Below, piece by piece: positions 135 through 59,184 of a stretch of DNA of 64,000 bases (position 1 is the first letter of the stretch; every line of letters starts with the position of its first letter). The position numbers were made by a program, and so were the translations under genes. Origin of the DNA: Micromonospora ureilytica (GTDB lineage Bacteria > Actinomycetota > Actinomycetes > Mycobacteriales > Micromonosporaceae); contig NZ_JADOTX010000001.1 in the NCBI RefSeq assembly GCF_015751765.1, forward strand, positions 3,906,001 through 3,970,000, given 5' to 3'. The notes under the pieces were generated by a model, which was not told the DNA's origin, did no database searches, and saw only the letters and a list, made by a program, of their open reading frames with translations.

Positions 135-330
135 CCTCTTGGTGCCCCTTCCCCTCGGGCTACCAGGGTAGCGGCCCGTTCGGGGGGCCCAACCCACCGG
201 CATTGACCCGCTGGCCCATGGCGGGCATCCACGACGGGCAGTACGCTGCACAACAAGAATGTGTTCTGGGCGATTTCGGGGGCTTTGCACTCGGCGCCGA
301 CGATGCGCGGCTCCGTTCACGGGGGAGCAC

Positions 331-1263
331 ATGACGACCCGCGGGAGGCCAACCGTGACGCGACAAGATGCGACACAGCGCACCGTCACGACCCCGGACG
401 GGCGGCACCTCGCGGTGGAGACCTCGGGAGCGCCGGACGGGCCGGCGGTCTTCCTGCTGCACGGCACCCCGGGCAGCCGCAGCGGCCCTCGACCCCGGGG
501 CATCGTCGTCTACCGCCTCGGCGTGCACCTCGTCTGTTACGACCGGCCCGGGTACGGCGACTCCGACCGGCACGAGGGCCGGCGGGTGGCCGACGCCGCC
601 GCCGACGTGGCGGCGATCGCCGACGACCTCGGCATCGACCGGTTCTCGGTGGTGGGCCGCTCCGGTGGCGGGCCACACGCCCTGGCCTGCGCCGCGCTGC
701 TGCCGGACCGGGTCACCCGGGCCGCCGTGCTGGTGGGGCTCGCCCCGGCCGGCGCGCCCGACCTGGACTGGTACGCGGGCATGGCGGAATCGAACGTGGA
801 GGACTACGGGCAGGCCGACGAGGACCTGGCCGAGCTGACGCTCAACCTGAAGGTTCGCGCGGACGAGGCCCGTCGGGACCCGATGACGCTGCTGGACTTC
901 CTCCGCCCCCAACTGCCCGACGAGGACATCCGGGTCGTCGACGACGTCGCGATCCGCCGACTGCTGACCGACATGTACTCCGAGGCGGTGCGGCACGGCC
1001 CCGAGGGTTGGATCGACGACGTGTTGGCGATCCGGCGCGGCTGGGGGTTCGACCTGGGCGCCATCCGCGCGGAGGTCCGGCTCTGGCACGGCGAGCAGGA
1101 CCGCTTCTCCCCGGTGGAGCACTCCCACTGGCTCGCCGCACGGATTCCGCGCGCCGAGGTGCAGGTGCAGCCCGGCGCCGCGCACTTCGGGGCGGTGGAG
1201 ATCCTGCCGCAGACCCTGACCTGGCTGGCCACGCCGGCCCTCGCGACTAGCCCGCAACTCTGA
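331..1263 (+). CDS. alpha/beta-fold hydrolase
   Basis: A 310-residue cytoplasmic protein of the alpha/beta hydrolase superfamily. The oxyanion-hole motif is LLHGTPGS (residues about 42-49). The nucleophile elbow is GRSGGG with Ser111. Asp257 (in HGEQDRFSP) and His285 (in GAAHFG) complete the expected Ser-Asp-His triad. The ATG at 331 was chosen because GGGGGAG lies about 4 bases upstream; the frame is open further upstream but shows no domain there. It stands alone: miaB is divergent on the left and fxsT is convergent on the right, separated by a hairpin. Substrate cannot be inferred; esterase, epoxide hydrolase or C-C hydrolase are all possible. Confidence 0.85.
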
Positions 1264-1326: not shown

Positions 1327-4300
1327 TCAGATCGTGTGTGGGTCGATCACCCGGACCACGAACCGCCGTTCGCGCAGGGTCTGCACGGTGGGATGTTCCA
1401 GACCGATCACCTCGGCCAGCCGGTCCGCAACGGCGCCGACGTCCTCGGTGGCCGGGCCGTCGCCGGCCCGCCTCGCCACCAGGGCGAGATCGCCGAGGCA
1501 GCGCAGCGTGTCGGGGTGGTCCGCACCGATCACCGCGGCCAGTCGGCCGGCGGTCTCCCGCAGCCGGTCCCGCGCCGACTCCCAGTCACCCTCCTCGGCG
1601 AGACACACCGCCTGGTTGACCTCCGCCGCGAGGGTGTGCGGGTGGTCCGGCCCGAGCACCTTGCGCAACTCGCCGACCGCCCGGGACGCCGACGCGAGTG
1701 CGTCCGACCTGCGCCCGAGCGCGCGCTCCGCCGCCGAGATGTTGCTCACCGTCGCCAGGGCGTGCGGGTGCTCCGGGCCGAGCCGGAGCAACTCCTCGAA
1801 CGCCTGGCGCACGGCGTTCATCTCGGTCAGGGCCCGAGCCGCGTCGCCGACGGCCAACAGGTTCGCCGCGCGACTCGACCGGCACGCCACAGTGTCCGGG
1901 TTGTCCGGACCGAAGCGTTCGTCGAGTTCGCGGTAGGCCGTCTCGAACATCGGCGTGGCCTCGCTGCCCCGACCGGAGCTGCGCAGCGACACCGCCAGGT
2001 TGACCTGAGCGGCGAGGCTCTGGCCGTCATCCGGCCCGAGCACCTCGCAGTACGTCTCGTACACCGTGCGCAGCAGGGTGGCCGACCTCTCGTACTCGCC
2101 GGCCTCCCGCAGGTCGCTGCCCAGCCGCACGGCGGAGACGAGGGTGTAGGGATGCGTGGGGCCGAGCACCAGCCGCCGCCGCTGGTGCACCTCGTCGTCC
2201 CATCGACGGGCCGACCGGTAGTCGCCGACCAGCCGGTACGACACGGCGAGGTTGTTGGCCGCGCTCAGCGTCCGGGGGTGGTCCTCGCCGAACACCTGCA
2301 GCCAGGAGGCGTAGGTGGACCGGTCCCGATCCAGGGCCTCGGCGTAGCGGCCGAGCGCCCGCAGGTCACCGCCGAGGCTGCCGGCGGTCATCAGACTGTG
2401 CGGATGCAGCGGGCCCAGCAGCCGGCGTTGCTCGGCCAGCACCGCCTCGTCCAGGTCCCGGGCCTCGTTGAACCGGCCCAGGCTGCGCAGGATGTTCGCC
2501 CGGTTGAACCGCAGGTGCAACAACTGTCGGCCCAGCGCCGAGGCCTCGACCTCGTCGTGCGTGTCGCCGAGCCGAGCGCTCCAGGTGTCGTCCACCTCCT
2601 GGCTGAACACGTCGGCCTGGTCCAGACCGCCGCGCTGCCACAGATAACGGACCCGGTCGATGAGCAGCTGACACACCGGCTCCTCCGGACAGGTAAGCGC
2701 CTCGGAGACCTCCAGGTGCGGCCAGAGCATGCGCAGCCGAGCCCAGGTGGTCGGGTCGTCCACGTCGCCCCGGGGCCGGGACGCGGCCAGCACCAGGTGC
2801 ACCTGGTGTCGGGCGGCGGTGATCTCGTCGTCGGTCATCCGGTCGCGGACCACCGCCTGCAACAGCCGGTGCACCTGCACCCGACCGCCCTGGACGTCGA
2901 GTTTGAGCAGTGCCAGGCGGTTGATCTGCTGGACCAGGGCGCCGCGCACGAGCCGCTCCGACACCGACGGGTCGAACGGCACCAGGGCCGCCGCCATCTC
3001 GTCGCTGTAGATGAGTTCGAGGGCGATCTCGGGGGCCAGCACCGAGCAGAGCTGCAACAGCCGGTACGCGGCGGGCGCCTGCTCGAGCAGCCGGTTCAGC
3101 GACAGATCCCAGGTCGCCTCCACGGAGAGCGCGCTGGGACCGTGCCGCTCGATCTGCCTCAGGTAGTCGGCGACCGACGTGCCGGTGTCGGCGAGCCAGG
3201 CGCCCGCCGCGGCCACCGCGATCGGCAGGTCGCCGAGCGCCTCGGCCACCCGGTCGGCCTCCTCGGCGCTGATCGTGGGCACCCGCTGGGCGAGGTGCGC
3301 CACGCTCTCGGTGCGGTCGAAGACGTCCACCTGGATCGGGTTCGCCCGGTCACCCCAGGCGCGGTTGCGGGAGGTCAGCAGGACGTGCCCGGGGCCCTGC
3401 GGCAGGAAGGGCTCGATCTGGTCGAGCTCCTCGGCGTTGTCGAGCACGACCAGCCACCGCTCGTACGGCTCACCACGGCCGAGCACCTGGAGCACCGACC
3501 GGACCGTGTCGGGCAGGGTCGGCCCGACGAGGATGCCGAGGCGACCGGCGAGGTCGGCGAGGGCGGTGTCGACGAACTGCGGCGGGTCCGCCACGATCCA
3601 CCAGACCACGTCGTACGCGGCCTTGAACCGGTGCACGTATTCCAGCGCCACCTGGGTCTTACCGACACCGCCCATGCCCTGCAGGGCGACCGGCAGCACC
3701 ACCGCGCTGCCCCCGCTCTGCAACTGCGCGCGCAGCCGCGCCAGGTCGTCCTCCCGGCCGGTGAACCGGGCGTTCCGGTTGGGGGCGTTGAAGATCAACG
3801 GCTCCGTGCCGGGGTAGCGGGTGGACCCGCCCGCCGGCCCGTCCGCCGACGACGGCACCGGCCGGCCGACCAGCCGCAACACCCGCTCCACGGCGGTCGC
3901 GGCGCTGACGTTGACCAGATTGGTGGAACTCTGGGACGGAAATTCCGCCAACGGGCGCAGGTCGGCGACGTACACGGCCAGGGCCGTCGAGCCGGTGCTC
4001 GTGTCGCGGTCGGGCAGACCACCGGACGGCGTCGCCACGTAGGCCGGCGAGACCACTGTCAGCGTGCGCGGGGCCGGCGTACCGGCGGACCCGACGGCGG
4101 CCGTCGGCTCCACCACCCGCAGCCCGGCCGAACTGAGCACCCGCTCCAGCCACTCGGCCCAGATGGCGTCCTCCGGCGCGTACCGGAGCACGATCTGATC
4201 GTCGATCGCCTCGGTGCGTCGGCGGAACCGGGCCTTGCCCCGCTCCCGCACCGACTCGTCCATCACGGGCAGCGCGGTCACCGCGCCGTCGGTGAGGATC

Positions 4301-5196
4301 CCGGTCAACGTCTCGAACGCGGCCAGCAGCGACGTCGGTGAGCCCGGCGGATCGCCGAACGTGGCGAGGGTCTCCTCGTACGCGTAGAACGGCCGGTACG
4401 GGACCTCCACCGCGGCCCAGTAACGCCGCCGTTCCGCCTCGGTCATGCCGGCCGGCAACCCGGCGAACCGACGCATGGCCAGCAGGCGGCCCGCCTCGGC
4501 CCGTTCCTTCTCGGCCTGGTCGACCCGCATCGGCACCGGCAGGACCCGAATGTCGCGCCGCCGGTACCGGTCCCGTACCGAGTGCGCCACCCGGGCCGCG
4601 CCGTCGATGCCCTGGTCGCTGAGCGTGAAACAGTCGACCAGAGTGTCCGGTAGGTGCAGGGTGCAGATGTCGGCGACGTCGCTCAACCCCGTCCGGCTGT
4701 CGATCAGGGTGAAGTCGTACTGGCGCTTCATGTCCGCCCGCAGCGCCTCGAAGAACTGCGCCCCGCCCAGCCGGTTGTAGAAGTTGTCCCAGTCCAGCCC
4801 GCTCACCGAGACGGCGTAGTCGCTGTTCTGCCGGCCGGCGGAGAGGAAGTCGAGGCCGCCGCCTTCGGGGAAGTTCCAGCGCAGCGAGAACGCGTGCCGC
4901 CCGACCCGGGCGTACTGCTCCATCCAGCGGTCCGGCCGGTCGTCGACCCGGGTGGTCTCCCACTCGTAGTCGCGGATCATGTCGATCACACCGCTGGTGC
5001 CCTGGATCGCCTCGGCGTCGAGGAACGGGTGGAAGAAGCGGTGCAGACCGGGTGACTCCAGGTCCCAGTCGGCGACGAGCACCCGCCGGCCGCTGGCCGC
5101 CAGGATCCAGGCCACGTTGGCCAGCGCCATCGTCCGGCCCGTCCCACCCTTGAACGAGTAGAAGGTGACGACCTGGCCTTCGCGATCGTTGTTCAT
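1327..5196 (-). CDS. fxsT: FxsT: FxSxx-COOH system protein with ATPase, TIR-like, NB-ARC and TPR regions
   Basis: A 1289-residue protein, last gene of the FXS operon. Residues 1-310 are a ParA/MinD-like ATPase with a deviant Walker A, FKGGTGRT (15-22), and an LIDSRTG strand near 164-170. Residues about 333-440 look TIR-like (IVLRYAPEDAIWAEWL, then a hydrophobic VVSPAYV strand). Residues about 470-760 are an NB-ARC/STAND ATPase with P-loop GMGGVGKT (507-514), Walker B-like WLVVLDNAEE (581-590) and LLTSRN (606-611). From about 880 to 1270 there are tetratricopeptide repeats with recurring GxxHPxTL units. This architecture matches the tetratricopeptide-repeat protein of FxSxx-COOH loci. Its ATG overlaps the stop of the upstream fxsC by 4 bases (ATGA), so translation is probably coupled. 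The biochemical role is unproven; STAND architecture suggests ligand-triggered oligomerisation or signalling. Confidence 0.85.
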   Translation of the reverse strand: MNNDREGQVVTFYSFKGGTGRTMALANVAWILAASGRRVLVADWDLESPGLHRFFHPFLDAEAIQGTSGVIDMIRDYEWETTRVDDRPDRWMEQYARVGRHAFSLRWNFPEGGGLDFLSAGRQNSDYAVSVSGLDWDNFYNRLGGAQFFEALRADMKRQYDFTLIDSRTGLSDVADICTLHLPDTLVDCFTLSDQGIDGAARVAHSVRDRYRRRDIRVLPVPMRVDQAEKERAEAGRLLAMRRFAGLPAGMTEAERRRYWAAVEVPYRPFYAYEETLATFGDPPGSPTSLLAAFETLTGILTDGAVTALPVMDESVRERGKARFRRRTEAIDDQIVLRYAPEDAIWAEWLERVLSSAGLRVVEPTAAVGSAGTPAPRTLTVVSPAYVATPSGGLPDRDTSTGSTALAVYVADLRPLAEFPSQSSTNLVNVSAATAVERVLRLVGRPVPSSADGPAGGSTRYPGTEPLIFNAPNRNARFTGREDDLARLRAQLQSGGSAVVLPVALQGMGGVGKTQVALEYVHRFKAAYDVVWWIVADPPQFVDTALADLAGRLGILVGPTLPDTVRSVLQVLGRGEPYERWLVVLDNAEELDQIEPFLPQGPGHVLLTSRNRAWGDRANPIQVDVFDRTESVAHLAQRVPTISAEEADRVAEALGDLPIAVAAAGAWLADTGTSVADYLRQIERHGPSALSVEATWDLSLNRLLEQAPAAYRLLQLCSVLAPEIALELIYSDEMAAALVPFDPSVSERLVRGALVQQINRLALLKLDVQGGRVQVHRLLQAVVRDRMTDDEITAARHQVHLVLAASRPRGDVDDPTTWARLRMLWPHLEVSEALTCPEEPVCQLLIDRVRYLWQRGGLDQADVFSQEVDDTWSARLGDTHDEVEASALGRQLLHLRFNRANILRSLGRFNEARDLDEAVLAEQRRLLGPLHPHSLMTAGSLGGDLRALGRYAEALDRDRSTYASWLQVFGEDHPRTLSAANNLAVSYRLVGDYRSARRWDDEVHQRRRLVLGPTHPYTLVSAVRLGSDLREAGEYERSATLLRTVYETYCEVLGPDDGQSLAAQVNLAVSLRSSGRGSEATPMFETAYRELDERFGPDNPDTVACRSSRAANLLAVGDAARALTEMNAVRQAFEELLRLGPEHPHALATVSNISAAERALGRRSDALASASRAVGELRKVLGPDHPHTLAAEVNQAVCLAEEGDWESARDRLRETAGRLAAVIGADHPDTLRCLGDLALVARRAGDGPATEDVGAVADRLAEVIGLEHPTVQTLRERRFVVRVIDPHTI

Positions 5197-6464
5197 CGGT
5201 TTTCTCCGTGGGGACGCGGTGGGGCCGGATCATCAGGCGGGAACGCGGGGTCGGTGGAAACTGTCGAGCCGGCCGCGGGCAGGCCGTCACGCAGGCTCGG
5301 CACCGGCTCCGGCGGTGATTCGAAGGAGACGACCGGGCCGTACTTGAGGAACTGGCGGCGTGCCTCGGTGACCAACGCCGGCATCAGGTCGACGAACTCC
5401 GGCATGCTGCACGCGCGCTTCACCTGGGGCCGACCGGCGTCGCTCAGCAACTGGGTCACCTCGGTGGCCCAACGGGTGACGTCCTGGGTGTCGTCGTCAT
5501 CGGTGACGACCAGCGGAACGACCCACTCCCGCAGGCCGTGCAGCATGCGGGCGAGAACCTCGGCCGCGTCCGGCGCCGCCGCGATCCACGGGTCGACAAG
5601 CAGCACGGCCGGCCGCCGATCCAGCAGCGCGGAGGCCTGCGCGAAGTCCTCGGTACGGGCCGACAGCCCCAGCCGCTCGGCGGTGCTGGCCGCGTACTCG
5701 GCGGCGGGCAGTTGCTGGCTGCGCCCGTACGGCCGCCAGAGCCGGCCGCTGGCGGCGTAGCCGGCGGGGTCGCGATCGGTCGGCAGCCGGTCCCGGGTCG
5801 GGGCCAGGACGGCGACGACGAAGTCCGGATCGGTCGGCGCCGGACGGACGACCTCGTCCAGACCGGGCGCCCGGGACGGGCCCATCGGTCGCCGCTCGGC
5901 GGTGTGCACGATCCGGCTCGCCAGGCGGCTCAGCAGGAGCTCGTACTGGGCGCGGTAGGAGGCCAGCATGCAGAACGCGCGCAGGCCGTCGGCGGCGTAC
6001 TCCGGGACGTCCCGGCCCAGGTCCAGGGCGGCGTCCAGCTCCGGATGGGCCTCCCACGGGGGGGACGGTATCCACAGCACCGGAGTGAGATGGCCGGCGG
6101 TGACCCGGGTCGACCCGGCGGCGGCCAGCCGGGCCCGGAAGGACTCCTGCTCCCCCAGCGCCCAGGGACGCTTGAAGTAGCCGGGTGAGTAGAGCGGGAC
6201 GAAGACCTCGGCGTCACCGAGCGCCTCGGCGAGCGCGGCCTTCCAGTCGGCGCCCAACGGGATGTGCTGGTCGAAGAAGCCGATCCGCATCCCGGCGACC
6301 GGTCGCGCCTGGCGTCGCACCTCGTCGGTCAGGTCGGCGAAGAACTGGCCGACCCAGACGTCGGCGTCGGCACGGGCGCCCGGCCGCGGCGCCGAGTGGG
6401 CGTAGCTCAGGAAGAAGTACGTCCCGCGCGCGCCCGATCGGCGCCGGTCCGTCGGCGGGCTCAC
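5193..6464 (-). CDS. fxsC: FxsC-type TIR-like protein of the FxSxx-COOH system
   Basis: A 423-residue protein. The first 200 residues are TIR-like: YFFLSYAHSAP (16-26), an aspartate-rich helix, GFFDQHIPLGADW (62-74), then EVFVPLYSPGYFKRPWALGE (86-105). The rest forms a second alpha/beta domain with AVLLVDPW and VVPLVVTDDDD strands, resembling the C-terminal domain of FxsC. The GTG at 6464 was chosen because it overlaps the upstream TGA by 4 bases (GTGA) and has GAGGAG 5-6 bases upstream. Any extension to an earlier start would lie entirely inside the upstream gene. The usual NADase catalytic glutamate of TIR domains cannot be assigned by eye, so enzyme activity is open. Confidence 0.8.
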   Translation of the reverse strand: MSPPTDRRRSGARGTYFFLSYAHSAPRPGARADADVWVGQFFADLTDEVRRQARPVAGMRIGFFDQHIPLGADWKAALAEALGDAEVFVPLYSPGYFKRPWALGEQESFRARLAAAGSTRVTAGHLTPVLWIPSPPWEAHPELDAALDLGRDVPEYAADGLRAFCMLASYRAQYELLLSRLASRIVHTAERRPMGPSRAPGLDEVVRPAPTDPDFVVAVLAPTRDRLPTDRDPAGYAASGRLWRPYGRSQQLPAAEYAASTAERLGLSARTEDFAQASALLDRRPAVLLVDPWIAAAPDAAEVLARMLHGLREWVVPLVVTDDDDTQDVTRWATEVTQLLSDAGRPQVKRACSMPEFVDLMPALVTEARRQFLKYGPVVSFESPPEPVPSLRDGLPAAGSTVSTDPAFPPDDPAPPRPHGENR

Positions 6465-7120
6465 TGCGGCTCCTCGGCGAACCTGTTGCACAGCTCGTCC
6501 ACGCTCGCCGGCACCCAGGGCTCGACCAGGTACGACCGGTGGATGGCCACGATCCGCTGCGCCAGCCGCCAGACCACCGCCCGGTACGCGTTCTCCCACT
6601 GCATGGTCAGCAAGCCATAGACCCCGTCCCGCTGGTAGTGCACCGCGATGTCGGGATCCGGCATCGCGGTCGGGGAGAAGCGCTGGATGTCGCGGAGCAC
6701 CCGAGGCAGTGCCGTGCCGTTCGTCGGCGACCAGGTGACCGGCACGATCGCCGTCTCGTGGATCGAGGCGGAGCTGTGTAGCGGGGTGATCCGTCGGCGG
6801 GAGAACGCGTCCCACTCCCGGCCACACCAGTCGCTGCCGAGCAGCGCGCTGGACACCAGAGGAACGAAGACCTGGCAGGTGCCGGCGGCCTGGAGAAGCT
6901 CCGGGCTCCAGCGTTCGCCGCCGGCGATGGAGGTGTCCAGGAAGCCGGCGTCCACTCCGGTCACCGGGCCGACCAACTCACTGACGTGGACGGAGAGGTC
7001 CTCGAAGAATCGGGAGACGTACTCGGCGGGTTTGCCGGTGGCCCGGCCGACCGGCGCCCGCGAATAGCTGATGAAGAAGAGCGGGGCGCGTGCTCTGGAG
7101 GGTGCGTCCACTGTGCTCAC
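6461..7120 (-). CDS. short TIR-like protein (FxsC N-terminal-type paralogue)
   Basis: A 219-residue protein similar along its length to the first half of the downstream fxsC product. It has LFFISYSRAP (14-23), GFLDTSIAGGERW (59-71), CQVFVPLVSSALLGSDWCG (82-100) and a later MQWENAYRAVVWRLAQRIV segment. It lacks the second domain of FxsC, so it is either a single-domain paralogue or one half of a split pair. The GTG at 7120 has GGAGGGG 5 bases upstream; an in-frame ATG at 7156 would add 12 residues. It lies 52 bp after the AAC(3)-like gene and overlaps fxsC by GTGA. Working with FxsC and FxsT is inferred from position. Confidence 0.75.
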   Translation of the reverse strand: MSTVDAPSRARAPLFFISYSRAPVGRATGKPAEYVSRFFEDLSVHVSELVGPVTGVDAGFLDTSIAGGERWSPELLQAAGTCQVFVPLVSSALLGSDWCGREWDAFSRRRITPLHSSASIHETAIVPVTWSPTNGTALPRVLRDIQRFSPTAMPDPDIAVHYQRDGVYGLLTMQWENAYRAVVWRLAQRIVAIHRSYLVEPWVPASVDELCNRFAEEPQ

Positions 7121-7172
7121 CGCTGCCCCTCCGCCCTCCCCACGCGGCCGGATCATCAGCGTAGTCCCCGCG

Positions 7173-7997
7173 TCAACGTTGCGCCGCCAACCGGTTCGCG
7201 GCGAACCAGGCAGTCGCGAAGTCGACAGCGGCTCGCGCCGGCAGGAGGCGGGCGTTGGCCCGCCCCACCCGACCGCGCCGCACCAACGGCGTCTCGTCGA
7301 GCGCCGCACCCACCTTCGGGAAGTCCCGGTCGTCCAGGTCGAGGGCCCGGAAGTCGAGGCGCACTCGCCGCCCGTCGACGAGCCGGAAGCAGTGGTAGTC
7401 GCGCTCGGGTAGCGGCACCGGCAGCCGGTACTCGGCCAGGTGCAGGCCGGTGCACGCCTCGTAGCCGAGGCCGAGCAGCAGGATCTGCCCGTCCGCCGCG
7501 TAGAGGCCGCCAACCGGTGAGCGTTCCCCCAGGTGGCAGGTGAGGTCGTGGCCGTCGGTGAGCTGCCGGGCCCGGGGGCCGAGCGCGGTGAAGGAGGTCT
7601 GCGGATGGTCACTGCGCACCGCACCGGGGATGCACCGGACGTACTCGGCGAGCGCACCCATCCGCTGGGAGGGGGTGGTCCGGCGGTCCCACCCCGGCAG
7701 CGCCGCCTCGTACCGCTCACGCCGCGCCCGGTCCATTCCCGCGGTGGCCGCCAGGTGGGCCCGGGAGGTTGTCGAGTTACCGTCGGTGTGGGTGGGCACC
7801 AGCAGCGTGCCGGCCGGGCCGAGGACGTCGCGCAGCGCGCCGGCGAGGGTCGCGGGGCCGTGCTCCAACGGGCCCACCCGACGGAGGCCGCAGTGCACGA
7901 GTAGGCACACCCCCGGGCGTACGCCCAGCGCCCGCAGGTCGTCGGCGAGGCGGGGACGGCCCAGTCTGGGCGGTGGGTGCTCATCTGGACCCGACAC
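7173..7997 (-). CDS. AAC(3)-family N-acetyltransferase embedded in the FXS locus
   Basis: A 274-residue protein of the antibiotic 3-N-acetyltransferase family. Visible hallmarks are LLVHCGLRRVG (32-42), TLLVPTHTDGN (64-74), the conserved RSDHPQTSFTALG block (128-140, with the family His-Pro pair) and ILLLGLGYEACTGLHLAEY (172-190). The true start appears to be the GTG at 7997, preceded by GGAGGGGAC and overlapping the end of fxsB by 17 bases; the ATG at 7984 is out of frame. Classical members acetylate the 3-amino group of aminoglycosides with acetyl-CoA. Because this gene is locked inside a peptide-modification operon, a substrate tied to the FXS product is as likely as drug resistance. Length is typical for the family. 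Confidence 0.85.
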   Translation of the reverse strand: MSGPDEHPPPRLGRPRLADDLRALGVRPGVCLLVHCGLRRVGPLEHGPATLAGALRDVLGPAGTLLVPTHTDGNSTTSRAHLAATAGMDRARRERYEAALPGWDRRTTPSQRMGALAEYVRCIPGAVRSDHPQTSFTALGPRARQLTDGHDLTCHLGERSPVGGLYAADGQILLLGLGYEACTGLHLAEYRLPVPLPERDYHCFRLVDGRRVRLDFRALDLDDRDFPKVGAALDETPLVRRGRVGRANARLLPARAAVDFATAWFAANRLAAQR

Positions 7998-10308
7998 GGG
8001 TCCCCTCCAGCCCGTGGCGCAGCTGGGCGACGAACCGCTCACCCGCCGCGGTGAGCGACCGGCTGGCCAGCAGCGCGTCGACGCCGTCCCGGGTCCACCC
8101 CAGGAAGTGGGCCGCGTGCGCCGACGCGTCCGGCTGGTCGGTGGCGGCCCGGGACTGCCAGACCTGGGTGACGGCGAGGTGGGCGTAGACGCCCTGGAGC
8201 ACCCCCTCCGGAGGCCGCGGGTCGGGGCGCCAGGGCACCCGGATCCGGATGCCCTGCCCGGGTTCGACCAGGTCGTACAGGTCGAGCACGGCACCCAGCT
8301 TCGCGTGCTGCCACTCGTGCACGAGCAGCACCGCCATCGTCTCCGGGTCGGGATGGGGGGTGACGGCGACCGCGCCGAACGCGTGCCGGGCGGTCGCGCT
8401 CCGCAGGGGTCGCGCCGGGTCGGGCGCCAACGGCACCACGGCGCGCAGACCGCCGTCGAGCGCCGCCGCGTGCGCCGGCACGTCCCGGTGCACGACCCGC
8501 CAGGCATCCGCCAGGGTACGGCCCAACGCCCGCGCCGCCGGAACCTCCAGCCGGGACTCCACCGGCTGGCCGTAGCAGTCGCGGTAGGGGTCGCCGTCCT
8601 CCAGGAGCAACCGGCCACCGGGCACCGACACGTCGCGGGTCGGAAGCCAGCCGGTCGGCGGCGGCGCCGGCGGATCGAGGAGCACCGTCTGCTCGACCGA
8701 CCCGCCCCGGACCTGGAACCCGCCGGGCCGGACGGTCACCTCGGCGCTCTCCCCCAGGCCGGGCAGCACCAGGCTGCCGAGCGTGGGCAACGTGATCGCG
8801 TCGGCCCGCACCGGGACGTGCAACGCGGCCGGGACACCGGCCCGCACGGCCGCGGCGATGGCGAGGGCCGGCAGTGGGTCGACTGCCGCGCCGAGGCCGG
8901 GCAGGACGGACGAGTCGAGGCGATGCACCAGAGCGGGCCGGACGAACGGGTGCGCCAGGACGGCCCGGACCGCCTCCGGCGCCGCCTGGTCGAGGTGGAC
9001 GAGCAGGTCCCAGGCGGCCGTGGCGCCGGACCGGTCCCGACAGGCCGCCAGCAGCGCCCGGGTGATGGAGAGCTGGGTGGCGGCGAGCAGCGCGAGCGTC
9101 GACGCCGACCCGTGCCCGGTCGCCAGGTCGTCGAGCACCTCGTCGACGGGCGAGGTGGCCGGCAAGGTGGCGGGGGTGGGCGGCGGGTGGGCGTCCACGG
9201 TGTCGATCAGGCGGAGCAGGTCGGCGCAGTACACCGAGGGGTTGTCGAAGCCGGAGCCGGTGCGCCAGCGGTGGGCGTACAGGCCGCCGCCGCACCTGTC
9301 GACCACCGGGCACGACCGGCAGGTCAGGCAGAGCCCGTCCACGCCGTCCTGCCGGACGGCGACCCCTGGGTGCCGTGCGACCTCGTCCACCGAGTGGTCG
9401 AACACGTCGAACCCGGTGTCGGCCGCGCCGTGGTACGCGGTCTTCAGCGAGTCGACCTGCTCCCAACTGCCGTCCGCCTCGATGACCAGCACGTCGGCCG
9501 GCGCGAGGCCGAACGCCTCGGTGCCGCCGCCACCCGGGCGCAGCGCCTCGAACATCCGGATCGACACCGGGCGCCCGTCGTCCACCCACCGCCGGTGCAG
9601 CCGCCCCAACCAGTCGGCGTACGGGGTGGGGTCGGGGCCGGGGCGCTCCGGGGGTTGGTCCCAGGTGGCGTGGGGCAGCAGCAGGTCGACCCGGGGCGGG
9701 CTCTCGGCCAGCAGCGCCTCGTACACCCGGTCGGGATCGTTGCGGACGTCGACAGTGCAGAGGATGCCGGCGTAGCTGGTGCGGTGTTCCGGCCGCCGGA
9801 GCAGGGCCAGCGCCCGCCGGACGTGGTCGTGACTGCTGCCGCCGTGGGCGAAGACCCGGTGGCGGTCGTTGGCCGCGCGGTCGCCGTCGAAGGACACGCC
9901 GACCCGCAGGTCGTACTCGACGAACAGCCGGCACAGCTCCTCGTCGAGCAGCACGCCGTTGGTCTGCATGCGCAGGTCGAGCCGCGCCCAGGGGGTGATT
10001 GCCGAGCGCAGCTCGGCCAGCGCCTCCCGCAACCCGGCGGCGCCCAGGAGCAACGGCTCGCCCCCGTGCAGCACCACGTGCACGACCGGCAACCCGTGCT
10101 CGCGGGCGTGCTCGGCGATCCGTCGCGCGGCGGCCTTGACCGTGGCCGGCGGCATCCGCGTCGGACGGCCACGCCAGGTCTGGTCGGCGTGCTGGTAGAT
10201 GTAGCAGTGGTCGCAGCTGAGGTCACACCGGCTGTGCACCTTCAGCACGAACTGGCTGATCGGCCGGCAGGATCCGCCCACTCCGGGCGGACCGCACCGG
10301 CAGACCAT
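7981..10308 (-). CDS. fxsB: FxsB: radical SAM/SPASM peptide maturase with HExxH C-terminal extension
   Basis: A 775-residue enzyme. Cys28, Cys32 and Cys35 (CDLSCDHC) form the radical-SAM CxxxCxxC motif. HGGEP at 81-85 is the SAM-binding GGEP. Cys327, Cys330, Cys333, Cys339 and Cys361 look like SPASM auxiliary-cluster ligands. Residues from about 390 on are a separate region ending in an HExxH site (His664-Glu665-x-x-His668) followed by KLGAVLDLYDLVEPGQ, resembling the HExxH peptide-modification extension of FxsB proteins. Members of this family install a three-residue cyclophane crosslink between an aromatic side chain and a nearby residue of the precursor. It starts 3 bases after the fxsA stop and overlaps the AAC(3)-like gene. 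The intact HExxH is noteworthy because related extensions have been described as inactive. Confidence 0.92.
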   Translation of the reverse strand: MVCRCGPPGVGGSCRPISQFVLKVHSRCDLSCDHCYIYQHADQTWRGRPTRMPPATVKAAARRIAEHAREHGLPVVHVVLHGGEPLLLGAAGLREALAELRSAITPWARLDLRMQTNGVLLDEELCRLFVEYDLRVGVSFDGDRAANDRHRVFAHGGSSHDHVRRALALLRRPEHRTSYAGILCTVDVRNDPDRVYEALLAESPPRVDLLLPHATWDQPPERPGPDPTPYADWLGRLHRRWVDDGRPVSIRMFEALRPGGGGTEAFGLAPADVLVIEADGSWEQVDSLKTAYHGAADTGFDVFDHSVDEVARHPGVAVRQDGVDGLCLTCRSCPVVDRCGGGLYAHRWRTGSGFDNPSVYCADLLRLIDTVDAHPPPTPATLPATSPVDEVLDDLATGHGSASTLALLAATQLSITRALLAACRDRSGATAAWDLLVHLDQAAPEAVRAVLAHPFVRPALVHRLDSSVLPGLGAAVDPLPALAIAAAVRAGVPAALHVPVRADAITLPTLGSLVLPGLGESAEVTVRPGGFQVRGGSVEQTVLLDPPAPPPTGWLPTRDVSVPGGRLLLEDGDPYRDCYGQPVESRLEVPAARALGRTLADAWRVVHRDVPAHAAALDGGLRAVVPLAPDPARPLRSATARHAFGAVAVTPHPDPETMAVLLVHEWQHAKLGAVLDLYDLVEPGQGIRIRVPWRPDPRPPEGVLQGVYAHLAVTQVWQSRAATDQPDASAHAAHFLGWTRDGVDALLASRSLTAAGERFVAQLRHGLEGTRVGSR

Positions 10309-10311
10309 CGT

Positions 10312-10500
10312 TCAGATGGACGAGTTGAAGGCGGCGACGGCCACTATGCCGGACGGCACGGAGTCGTTCGTGACCACGCGCCTGCGCACCGCCTCGATCA
10401 GATCGGCGTGCTCGACGGCGATCCGTTCCAGCGGGGTGTGCAGGCTACGCGTGAGATCGTCTAGGTCGGGACGGGATGAGCGGGCGGGGGCATGGTCCAC
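10312..10500 (-). CDS. fxsA: FxsA: FxSxx-COOH precursor peptide
   Basis: A 62-residue peptide ending F58-N59-S60-S61-I62, an exact FxSxx C-terminus. The centre is a charged leader (DLDDLTRSLHTPLERIAVEHADLIEAVRR is split around residues 12-40). Residues 42-57 form a small, mostly aliphatic stretch before the core. The GTG at 10500 was chosen because GGAGA lies 6 bases upstream; an in-frame start at 10587 would add a basic, low-complexity 29 residues. The gene is first in the operon, 3 bases ahead of fxsB. The aromatic Phe58 with Asn59/Ser60 is the expected site for FxsB-catalysed crosslinking; whether a leader is then cleaved is unknown, and no protease gene is adjacent. Confidence 0.88.
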   Translation of the reverse strand: MDHAPARSSRPDLDDLTRSLHTPLERIAVEHADLIEAVRRRVVTNDSVPSGIVAVAAFNSSI

Positions 10501-10961: not shown

Positions 10962-11441
10962 TCAGGCCGCGGCGAGCGCCGGTGCGACAGTGTCCGGCGC
11001 CCAGCGCGAGCGGTGGCACTGCGACCAGCCCCGACAACCCGGGTCGCCAAGTGAGCAGAGCCGCAACCTGCTGAGCACCTCACCGTCCTCGGTGTCCCGC
11101 ACGTCGAAGTGCACCGGACGGACCGTGCCGTCCGGGGCGACGAGCAGGTGCCGGCCCGCGTCGAGCGTGTCGTCGCGCAACAGGCAGTTGCGGCCCAGCA
11201 ATCGGGCCAGTGCGGCGATGCTCGCGTGCTCGGAGAGCTGCTCGGGCACCCCGTAGCAGTCCACCACCGTCGCGAACTCGCCCGGCGCCAGCCAGACGTC
11301 ACACACCACCGCGTACGCCGGCAGCCGCGCCGGGTCGGCCACCGCCAACGGCATCACCACCCGACCAAGCGCCTCGGCCAACGCCGGGTAGACCTCCACG
11401 GGTTGAGCCCCGTCGATTCTCCAGTTCCACAGCTCGGTCAT
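10962..11441 (-). CDS. hypothetical protein
   Basis: A 159-residue protein that I do not recognise. It starts MTELWNWRIDGAQP with GAGGAGG 4-5 bases upstream, which fixes the ATG at 11441. The middle contains strand-like segments (YAVVCDVWLAPGEFATVVDCYG, split about residues 43-64) and a helix ALARLLGRN. The end carries three cysteines (C-S-L-G-D-P-G-C and W-S-Q-C) that could bind metal or be chance. No membrane segment. Codon use looks native. It is convergent with the DUF2277 gene (48-bp gap) and lies downstream of selD on the same strand after a 230-bp gap. Confidence 0.65.
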   Translation of the reverse strand: MTELWNWRIDGAQPVEVYPALAEALGRVVMPLAVADPARLPAYAVVCDVWLAPGEFATVVDCYGVPEQLSEHASIAALARLLGRNCLLRDDTLDAGRHLLVAPDGTVRPVHFDVRDTEDGEVLSRLRLCSLGDPGCRGWSQCHRSRWAPDTVAPALAAA

Positions 11442-58960: not shown

Positions 58961-59078
58961 AGTGGCAATACTGCAAGTTGAAGTCAGGTAGAGGTCAACC
59001 GGCCGTGGCGGTGGTCACCGCCGCGCCGCCGGGGTCGGTGCTAGCGTCGGCACCGGTGGCCGGATACACGTGGCCACT

Positions 59079-59121
59079 CCGGACGAGTGGTGGGCGTACC
59101 CGGTCAGGCCAAGACGCCCCG
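59079..59121 (+). ncRNA. guanidine-III (ykkC-III) riboswitch
   Basis: The plus strand reads CCGGACGAG at 59079, then GGGCGTACCCGGTCAGG at 59092-59108 and CAAGACGCCC at 59110-59119. This matches, almost base for base, the compact pseudoknotted guanidine-III aptamer, with CCGG pairing to CCGG and GGCG pairing to CGCC. It lies 64 bp upstream of a Gdx-type exporter, the standard target. Guanidine binding probably exposes the ribosome site (GGTGAGG near 59174). Confidence 0.88.
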
Positions 59122-59184
59122 CGTGACGTGCAGACTCGACTCGTCCCGGCGCGGCAGCCCCGGGCGCTTCCGGTGAGGTGAACG

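Follow-up and report, generated by a model that had tools for sequence, protein, structure and literature searches.

We found that the 64,000-nucleotide stretch of DNA from the soil bacterium Micromonospora ureilytica analysed here (the window) carries, at positions 1327-10500 of the minus strand, a complete standalone FxS (FxSxx-COOH) locus, and we put at about one in two the probability that it functions as a system in which the peptide is oxidised by the fused HExxH domain, most likely at V55, and acts inside the cell on FxsT and FxsC. Six minus-strand genes lie head to tail in the order fxsA-fxsB-AAC(3)-fxsC1-fxsC2-fxsT, and a hydrolase gene converges on the last of them:

10312..10500, minus strand: fxsA, 62-aa precursor with a GTG start, ending AAFNSSI-stop (tail V53-A-V55-A-A-F58-N-S60-S-I-COOH)
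7981..10308, minus strand: fxsB, 775 aa, radical SAM/SPASM and aKG-HExxH fusion (TIGR04269, TIGR04267)
7173..7997, minus strand: AAC(3)/Antibiotic_NAT-like acyltransferase, 274 aa (PF02522)
6461..7120, minus strand: fxsC1, 219-aa TIR-like protein with catalytic-type Glu102 (NF040588, TIR_2)
5193..6464, minus strand: fxsC2, 423 aa, TIR-like N-domain (Glu105) and FxsC C-terminal domain (NF040588, TIGR04276)
1327..5196, minus strand: fxsT, 1289 aa, KGGTGRT MinD/ParA-like domain, NB-ARC and TPRs (NF047398, NF040586)
259..1263, plus strand: alpha/beta hydrolase, convergent with fxsT, start at 259 or 331 (PF00561)

The first-pass annotation had described a complete FxS locus in one overlapping operon. 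Completeness was borne out by profile searches, in which FxsB, FxsC and FxsT all exceeded curated cut-offs within one operon, and by a precursor with an F-x-S-x-x tail beside FxsB, with 3 nt separating fxsA and fxsB. The head-to-tail arrangement also holds, with a 17-nt overlap between fxsB and AAC(3) and 4-nt overlaps at fxsC1/fxsC2 and fxsC2/fxsT; the word overlapping fails at the AAC(3)/fxsC1 junction because of a 52-nt gap. The order fxsA-fxsB-AAC(3)-TIR-fxsC-fxsT, as had been proposed, is conserved in relatives, both within Micromonospora and beyond the genus, where AAC(3) and the second FxsC are optional. A promoter scan returned a single sigma-70-like match (10605-10577), and a terminator scan at the 3' end of the locus returned none. 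The gene upstream of fxsA (10962-11441) was considered as a part of the system and rejected as a genus core gene, present in 60 of 61 genomes.

Curated models already exist for the families, and the architecture has been on record since 2020; the locus is a further example of a known system. The section of Kaur 2020 (eLife, PMC7159879) on standalone FxSxx peptide-processing systems in Actinobacteria describes the same FxSxx precursor, radical SAM/SPASM enzyme, zincin-like HExxH unit and AP-ATPase with a MinD/ParA-like domain and TPRs. There the HExxH unit is interpreted as a peptidase, and the section is silent on AAC(3)-like genes and on the alpha/beta hydrolase found here. A VMAP linkage was rejected for our locus upon a search for the MoxR and VWA partner genes, the nearest of which lie ~245 kb away. 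Literature searches on FxsB, on AAC(3) with cyclophanes and on radical SAM enzymes with TIR plus NB-ARC returned nothing on point.

FxsA reached 18 bits against TIGR04268, under the cut-off of 28. Its tail had been read correctly as F-N-S-S-I, with the numbering F58-N59-S60, and the first-pass annotation had staked its interpretation on conservation of this tail in homologues. The FxSxx tail proved almost invariant across families: of the 225 FxsB relatives that are full-length and fused, 209 have an F-x-S-x-x-stop frame alongside (identical FxsB collapsed; no pair shares the same 300-residue core), compared with 0 of 954 random 480-nt intervals from the same loci. Thirteen of the 16 relatives without this frame are HExxH-intact, and inspection revealed variant tails in 8 of the 13, with Val three residues before the cyclophane Phe (F-3) in 7 of the 8.

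FxsB scored 543 bits against TIGR04269 (cut-off 370) and 148.6 bits against TIGR04267 (cut-off 40). Residues 17-371 are a radical SAM/SPASM cyclophane synthase and residues ~386-775 an aKG-HExxH domain with an intact motif (HEWQH, residues 664-668); with this motif and 183 bits against NF040587, under its cut-off of 225, the protein falls outside the inactivated-extension form FxsBH. The first-pass annotation had overlooked the fused intact HExxH domain, which predicts a second modification. FxsB resembles ChlB (9gm3), 22nu and ChlH (8s5f), with both domains recognisable and key residues in common; HExxHxKL and PWRxDxRPPxG are shared with ChlH, a hydroxylase known from experiment. Such ChlB/ChlH and fused radical SAM-aKG-HExxH proteins are reportedly the subject of Morishita 2024 and Ruel 2025, both cited in PMC12636437. 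All 65 HExxH-intact rows (the window being counted twice, as itself and as L033) have K670, W693, R698, P699 and W717, while the 19 HExxH-lost rows, one of them truncated (L014), keep R698 in 0, W717 in 4, K670 in 7, P699 in 10 and W693 in 11. By profile and by the residues shared with ChlH, the domain fits an aKG-HExxH peptide beta-hydroxylase, whose activity is predicted.

For the radical SAM half, we take MscB to be an FxsB-family enzyme, and triceptide maturases were reportedly treated by Phan and Morinaka in 2022. The part of PMC11002830 on radical SAM enzymes of this class has them making triceptides and gives a demonstrated Phe-Ser cross-link for MscB (Phe C4 to Ser C-beta; Nguyen 2020), so the final product was not as wholly open as had been stated. 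That link belongs to the known maturases, whereas our locus is known from its genes and adds a fused intact HExxH domain; by analogy with the family, FxsB would form a three-residue cyclophane between Phe58 and Ser60.

The aKG-HExxH domain is intact in 172 of the 225 relatives and destroyed in 53, through ~8 losses, and HExxH-lost loci still have FxsC, FxsT and, mostly, the hydrolase. HExxH-intact loci retain Val-Ala-Ala ahead of the cyclophane Phe: Val stands at F-3 in 143/159 intact versus 7/49 lost loci, the latter falling in 8 separate clades. A phylogeny-aware test of correlated evolution between Val at F-3 and HExxH, on 208 of the 209 loci with a precursor (L248 was dropped, its motif lying in an alignment gap), gave LR 31.2 and p 2.8e-6; p was <=1.8e-5 in 12/12 resampled trees and 8.2e-4 upon removal of the largest lost clade. 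In a scan of 12 positions the signal peaked at F-3 (LR 29.8), with further dependence at F-1 (LR 16.1), F-5 (14.9) and F-2 (13.8) and no significant dependence at F+1, F+3, F+4, F-4, F-6, F-7, F-9 or F-11. There are exceptions: 16 of the 159 HExxH-intact loci carry a residue other than Val at F-3 (Ala in 8), and two loci (L140, L198) retain Val despite HExxH loss. VAAFNNYI also occurs in three unfused loci (L096, L097, L104) whose FxsB has no HExxH gene nearer than 6 kb; one lies 8.6-13.6 kb off on the opposite strand. Inferring a target from co-occurrence has a precedent in PesO, for which the relevant part of PMC13060819 reports that a Pro co-occurring with the HExxH gene proved hydroxylated. 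These patterns make Val55 the leading candidate for beta-hydroxylation, the alternative being that Val-Ala-Ala is a docking site; since F-5, F-2 and F-1 also respond, docking and reaction site are not separated.

It is accordingly conceivable, though in our view doubtful, that the HExxH domain modifies some other position of the peptide, the ring residue N59 or V53, with Val-Ala-Ala serving only for docking or positioning. The responses at F-1, F-5 and F-2 would fit this, as would the finding that ChlH hydroxylation requires a pre-formed cyclophane. The residues on which ChlH acts, in a peptide that carries a ring, are Asp and His; this speaks against Val as the target here, where the co-evolving segment is V-x-V-A-A ahead of the ring. 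Against a target elsewhere, the strongest signal is at F-3. A hydroxylase target at F+1 was rejected (LR 8.1, p 0.09): this position varies freely among N, G, Q and S in HExxH-intact loci, and a Gly there cannot be beta-hydroxylated. A co-evolving F-5..F-1 segment could equally mark a cleavage site, with HExxH as a metallopeptidase or oxidative backbone cleaver at V-A-A|F that frees the FxSxx peptide. Kaur 2020, in its section on these systems (PMC7159879), proposes peptidase cleavage and a peptide that is a toxin or signal, and oxidative backbone cleavage is reported, in the part of the literature covered, for the related HExxH enzyme PflC. We consider cleavage unlikely, given the residues shared with ChlH beyond HExxH, the re-assignment of the family to aKG-dependent oxygenases (in the relevant part of PMC13060819), the retention of downstream genes in motif-lost loci, and the alpha/beta hydrolase as an alternative candidate for any cleavage step.

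The AAC(3)-like protein scored 251 bits against PF02522 (cut-off 25), and its H131, H186 and E189 are invariant in 59 of 59 sequences. It carries the full catalytic motif and public databases name it aminoglycoside N(3)-acetyltransferase, as would suit an ordinary resistance gene in the operon by chance. We regard this as very improbable: 105 of 146 loci, from several families, have the gene located after fxsB and before fxsC (automatic loci with short flanks left out), all five AAC(3) resistance models that matched were far below cut-off (at best 165 versus 270 bits), and the best solved-structure match is FrbF (3sma), which according to the passage on it in PMC8956665 has no aminoglycoside activity. 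FrbF and such Antibiotic_NAT enzymes share the fold family and the TxPhiHPhiAE catalytic motif; the gene here differs in being embedded in a RiPP operon. AAC(3) presence is not tied to HExxH integrity (83/116 intact versus 22/30 lost loci); its best association with a peptide residue was F-7 Gly (p 4e-5, uncorrected and without phylogeny control).

The first-pass annotation had bounded the locus at 1327..10500, which covers the six genes but proved too narrow: in 67 of the 75 long complete stretches in which it was counted, the hydrolase (70 bits against PF00561, cut-off 26) sits at the 3' end of fxsT, within 250 nt of that gene in 57 of these. Its triad Ser is present in 71/71 rows and Asp and His in 69/71, with 2 gaps. 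All NCBIfam equivalogs scored far below cut-off, and the gene is not tied to AAC(3) (44/49 loci with AAC(3), 23/26 without). The hydrolase is probably a seventh component of the system.

Both FxsC proteins match FxsC_Nterm NF040588 (FxsC1 159 and FxsC2 154 bits, cut-off 130) and TIR_2 (29.7 and 34.9 bits, cut-off 28), and FxsC2 also matches FxsC_Cterm TIGR04276 (69 bits, cut-off 55). Against solved structures the TIR similarity is weak, with best E values of 0.009 and 0.026, the former from the FxsC2 profile aligned to the L6 TIR. The catalytic-type column holds Glu in 118 of 135 FxsC domains, E105 of FxsC2 is invariant in 63/63, and we take this Glu to be the TIR NADase catalytic residue; both proteins thus appear to have a TIR domain with a catalytic-type Glu and a predicted NADase function. 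FxsT scored 965 bits against FxSxx_TPR NF040586 (cut-off 300), 138 against the KGGVGR ATPase NF047398 (cut-off 90), 27.9 against NB-ARC (cut-off 23.5) and 160 against TPR_12; its P-loop reads GMGGVGKT, and NB-ARC with a P-loop plus repeats is the architecture of an NLR/STAND ATPase. A stretch at ~330-470 may be a degenerate TIR-like domain (TIR_2 just 16.4 bits, under cut-off). The median dN/dS of FxsT is 0.09 compared with 0.07 for selD, a constraint almost as strong as that on selD, which suggests a fixed ligand. TIR plus NLR immune proteins share the catalytic-type Glu and the NB-ARC with TPRs; unlike them, FxsC here matches no PADLOC model and its NADase activity is predicted only. No PADLOC model matches the hydrolase either, FxsT matches only PDC-M28B, via its ParA-like N-terminus, and FxsB matches pVip weakly. 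Fifteen of the 75 complete loci have SLATT-domain genes, predicted nucleotide-signal effectors in the part of Kaur 2020 concerned (PMC7159879), no more than 12 kb away; the link is limited to Streptomycetaceae-type loci plus one other (L083).

In our working model, FxsA would be made and the radical SAM half of FxsB would join Phe58 to Ser60. The aKG-HExxH half would then oxidise the pre-ring segment, most likely by beta-hydroxylating Val55, with V53, A56 and A57 as part of its recognition site, as co-evolution suggests. Tailoring, trimming or de-acylation of the peptide, or a role further downstream, is the probable function of the AAC(3)-like enzyme (~7/10 loci) and of the hydrolase (~9/10). 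Once mature, the peptide would probably remain intracellular and serve FxsT, a conserved NLR-like ATPase, as ligand or licensing factor; FxsT in turn would control TIR-type FxsC proteins bearing the Glu needed for NAD+ cleavage. SLATT genes strengthen this in-cell reading, and the hydrolase weakens it, because a conserved adjacent enzyme could release the peptide. That the peptide is instead a secreted triceptide antibiotic or bacteriocin, with FxsC and FxsT for immunity or regulation, seems to us quite improbable. The enzyme class makes triceptides, AAC(3) could provide self-protection and the hydrolase processing, but no transporter was recognised among the listed gene-family clusters common to at least 8 of the 75 complete loci, a TIR and NLR-like pair is atypical for immunity, and the near-invariant tail is unlike that of diversifying bacteriocins. 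The earlier suggestion of a peptide-sensing or signalling device would agree with the signal proposed in that section of Kaur 2020 (PMC7159879). More speculatively, and with the odds in our judgement well against it, FxS loci may be bacterial NLR-TIR modules with a RiPP as endogenous ligand: a cytosolic peptide with a Phe-Ser cyclophane, beta-hydroxyvaline and possibly an acyl group, attached by AAC(3) and removed by the hydrolase in balance. Through this peptide FxsT would sense the condition of the modifying enzymes (SAM, aKG, iron, oxygen, acyl-CoA). Absence or alteration of the modified peptide, e.g. upon infection, would lead FxsT to free the FxsC TIR enzymes, and in some lineages SLATT pores would act as additional effectors.

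FxS is a widespread actinobacterial system, and the locus described here is an intact member. Its comparison with relatives adds the convergent hydrolase as a probable component and warns that 'aminoglycoside acetyltransferase' as a database label may not denote resistance where the gene lies in an operon of this kind. The relatives offer a natural experiment: the hydroxylase active site was lost several times over, after which a single short stretch of the peptide decayed while the cyclophane tail did not. What HExxH does in FxS loci can thereby be put as a question about one residue, V55, and valine would be a new target for an enzyme family whose targets, as listed in the part of PMC13060819 concerned, are His, Asp, Phe, Gln and Pro.

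Six minus-strand genes run from 10500 down to 1327 of the window as a standalone FxSxx-COOH (FxS) system. In order from fxsA to fxsT, the first pair is separated by 3 nt, the second overlaps by 17 nt, the third is separated by 52 nt, and the last two pairs each overlap by 4 nt. A seventh gene converges on fxsT from the other side.

Genes of the FxS locus, with the basis of each assignment
fxsA, 62 aa, minus strand: position and conserved tail
fxsB, 775 aa, minus strand: above curated NCBIfam cut-off
AAC(3)-like gene, 274 aa, minus strand: above Pfam cut-off
fxsC1, 219 aa, minus strand: above curated NCBIfam cut-off
fxsC2, 423 aa, minus strand: above curated NCBIfam cut-off
fxsT, 1289 aa, minus strand: above curated NCBIfam cut-off
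259-1263, plus strand: alpha/beta hydrolase, a probable component, its family obtained by clustering neighbouring reading frames

FxsA alone scores under its own profile cut-off (18 versus 28 bits), and we identify it because of its position together with its conserved tail. An F-x-S-x-x-stop frame adjoins 209 of the 225 full-length fused FxsB relatives, and none of the 954 equally long control intervals from those loci contains one. The strict FxSxx-COOH rule has exceptions in loci L086, L208, L217, L223, L257, L260 and L262, all with an intact HExxH motif, in which the precursors retain VA[A/G]F and the tails are altered (FQASI, FSNFV or FNNSL, for example, or additional residues).

Sampling a single genome for each species yielded 32 loci, and genomes of the family and class supplied 80 more stretches; among the unique FxsB loci of these stretches, 75 are complete fused standalone systems. 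The precursor was found in 74 of these, the AAC(3)-like gene lies between fxsB and fxsC in 49 (and in 105 of the 146 extended-set loci with enough sequence), and FxsC is present once in 43 and twice in 32. Of the genomes sampled, 83 of 150 from the window's family and 79 of 394 from its class have an FxsB above cut-off. Downstream of fxsB, loci L005 and L008 have the usual fxsT (93-94% identical) and, adjoining it, another fxsT of 64-65% identity with divergent fxsC1 and fxsC2; this module duplication or exchange implies that parts of the system are exchangeable.

The C-terminal aKG-HExxH domain of the window's FxsB has an intact motif (HEWQH), scores 149 bits against a TIGR04267 cut-off of 40, and stays under the cut-off of NF040587, the NCBI model for motif-lost relatives. 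Of the 225 full-length fused proteins, 172 carry the motif intact, and it is destroyed in the other 53. In intact loci, V-A-A immediately precedes the cyclophane Phe (F58 in the window's FxsA): of 159 precursors, 143 have Val at F-3, 134 have Ala at F-2 and 110 have Ala at F-1. In loci that lost the motif, Val occupies F-3 in 8/50, or in 7/49 without L248, whose motif coincides with a gap in the alignment. On a midpoint-rooted FastTree phylogeny of the radical SAM half of FxsB (208 sequences), with both traits coded as two-state, HExxH loss forms 8 separate clades. A likelihood-ratio test of correlated evolution between HExxH and Val at F-3 gave LR 31.2 (4 d.f., p 2.8e-6), with Val lost at a rate about 18 times higher when the active site is missing (6.7 versus 0.38). 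The coupling persists when the largest lost clade, comprising 37 sequences, is left out (LR 18.9, p 8.2e-4) and is recovered on all 12 trees built from resampled columns (LR 27.2-36.2). This co-evolution shows that the HExxH domain is functionally coupled to the V-A-A segment and does not specify the oxidised atom.

A scan of 12 positions ranked F-3 highest (LR 29.8), followed by F-1 (16.1), F-5 (14.9) and F-2 (13.8), with Bonferroni-corrected (x12) values of about 6e-5, near 0.04, near 0.06 and near 0.09, respectively; at the remaining 8 positions, F+1, F+3 and F+4 included, dependence on HExxH was non-significant. Contrary rows exist on both sides, as 16 of the 159 intact loci are without Val at F-3, whereas L140 and L198 retain it despite HExxH loss. 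Ten unfused systems have a readable tail and an HExxH gene no more than 6 kb away. Of these, 7 have Val at F-3 (L030, L102, L103, L107, L111, L114, L184), L105 has Ile, and L098 and L100 have Ala; the unfused L096, L097 and L104 keep VAAF, and no HExxH gene was found within 6 kb. In the open literature we found no analysis tying HExxH integrity to the V-A-A segment; subscription papers may hold one.

Because a recent study reports hydroxylation of a proline whose presence tracks that of an aKG-HExxH gene (PMC13060819), the same logic makes Val55 (F-3) of fxsA the first candidate target of the domain, which would recognise V53-A54-V55-A56-A57. The main mechanistic rival follows Kaur 2020 (PMC7159879), by which the HExxH domain would act as a peptidase at the V-A-A segment, and one family member is indeed reported to perform oxidative backbone cleavage (PMC12636437). 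However, the domain aligns with two solved structures, 22nu and that of the hydroxylase ChlH (8s5f), and the residues that FxsB and ChlH have in common, HExxHxKL and PWRxDxRPPxG, favour oxygenase chemistry over a peptidase.

The hydrolase profile matches on the opposite strand less than 3 kb from the fxsT end in 67 of the 75 complete loci, at 250 nt or less in 57 of those, an adjacency shared by three families, the window's own and Streptomycetaceae among them. Since the profile has only 72 matches above 200 bits across all 75 stretches (1.40 Mb), almost every match sits at an fxsT end. No hydrolase was found in the complete loci L005, L008, L017, L018, L059, L067, L079 and L080. Where members of the genus have no fxs, all 8 flanks compared (5-10 kb covered) lack the hydrolase as well. 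The nucleophilic Ser is present in 71/71 aligned rows and the triad Asp and His in 69/71, the remaining 2 being gaps. Its closest solved structure is 9wlv, a methyl ester carboxylesterase-type protein (E 3e-50), with proline iminopeptidases and esterases as far weaker structure-database matches; no NCBIfam equivalog came near its cut-off. Kaur 2020 names alpha/beta hydrolases in other conflict systems (PMC7159879).

The AAC(3)-like protein (ACYLTRANSFERASE) retains the TxPhiHPhiAE motif reported for its family (PMC8956665), with H131, H186 and E189 invariant in 59/59, and scores far under the cut-offs of the five resistance models that it matched. Its nearest solved structure is FrbF, described as having no aminoglycoside activity (PMC8956665). 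As the core F-N-S-S-I contains no lysine, the candidate sites that the enzyme would acylate are a hydroxyl or the N-terminus that loss of the leader would expose, and the alpha/beta hydrolase might reverse this acylation. We found no description in the open literature of such an AAC(3)-like gene as part of an FxS locus, although subscription papers may hold one.

FxsC1 and FxsC2 both match TIR_2 slightly above the cut-off, and both retain a Glu aligning with the W-x-x-x-E region of plant L6 TIR, which we take to be the TIR NADase residue. FxsT combines a MinD/ParA-like domain bearing KGGTGRT, a stretch whose weak similarity to TIR stays below cut-off, an NB-ARC domain with an intact P-loop, and TPRs. 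Median dN/dS across 10 close loci was 0.07 for selD, 0.09 for fxsT, 0.15 for fxsC1 and the hydrolase, 0.23 for AAC(3) and fxsC2, 0.27 for the radical SAM half, 0.30 for fxsA and 0.41 for the HExxH half; the slow evolution of FxsT suggests a sensor with a fixed, probably endogenous ligand. A SLATT gene lies within 12 kb of 15/75 complete loci, all Streptomycetaceae-type apart from L083. That of L077 (15370-16913) scores 131 bits for SLATT_3 and 122 bits for SLATT_1, both above cut-off. In 12 of the 15 it is partnered by a small gene, SLOG-like by eye, for which Pfam and NCBIfam gave no match. SLATT proteins are predicted pores responsive to a nucleotide signal (PMC7159879), and one may be a membrane effector of some FxS systems.

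The window's own genome has only one FxsB above cut-off. At about 6.966-6.970 Mb (L326, 5514-10041) it encodes another FxSxx_TPR protein, which scores 761 bits and whose gene converges with one for a standalone aKG-HExxH protein; this pair is probably a radical-SAM-less relative of the FxS system. Within the window, an unnamed core gene at 10962-11441 (minus strand), beside selD, encodes a 159-aa protein that matches neither NCBIfam nor Pfam models; 60 of the 61 genomes in the genus carry it. A Guanidine-III riboswitch lies at 59053-59123 (plus strand; 45.6 bits, gathering score 36).

The standalone FxS architecture is already published (PMC7159879) and the MscB cross-link is summarised in a review (PMC11002830). 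The locus is a new member of a described system, and its interest lies in a testable prediction and an added, probable component.
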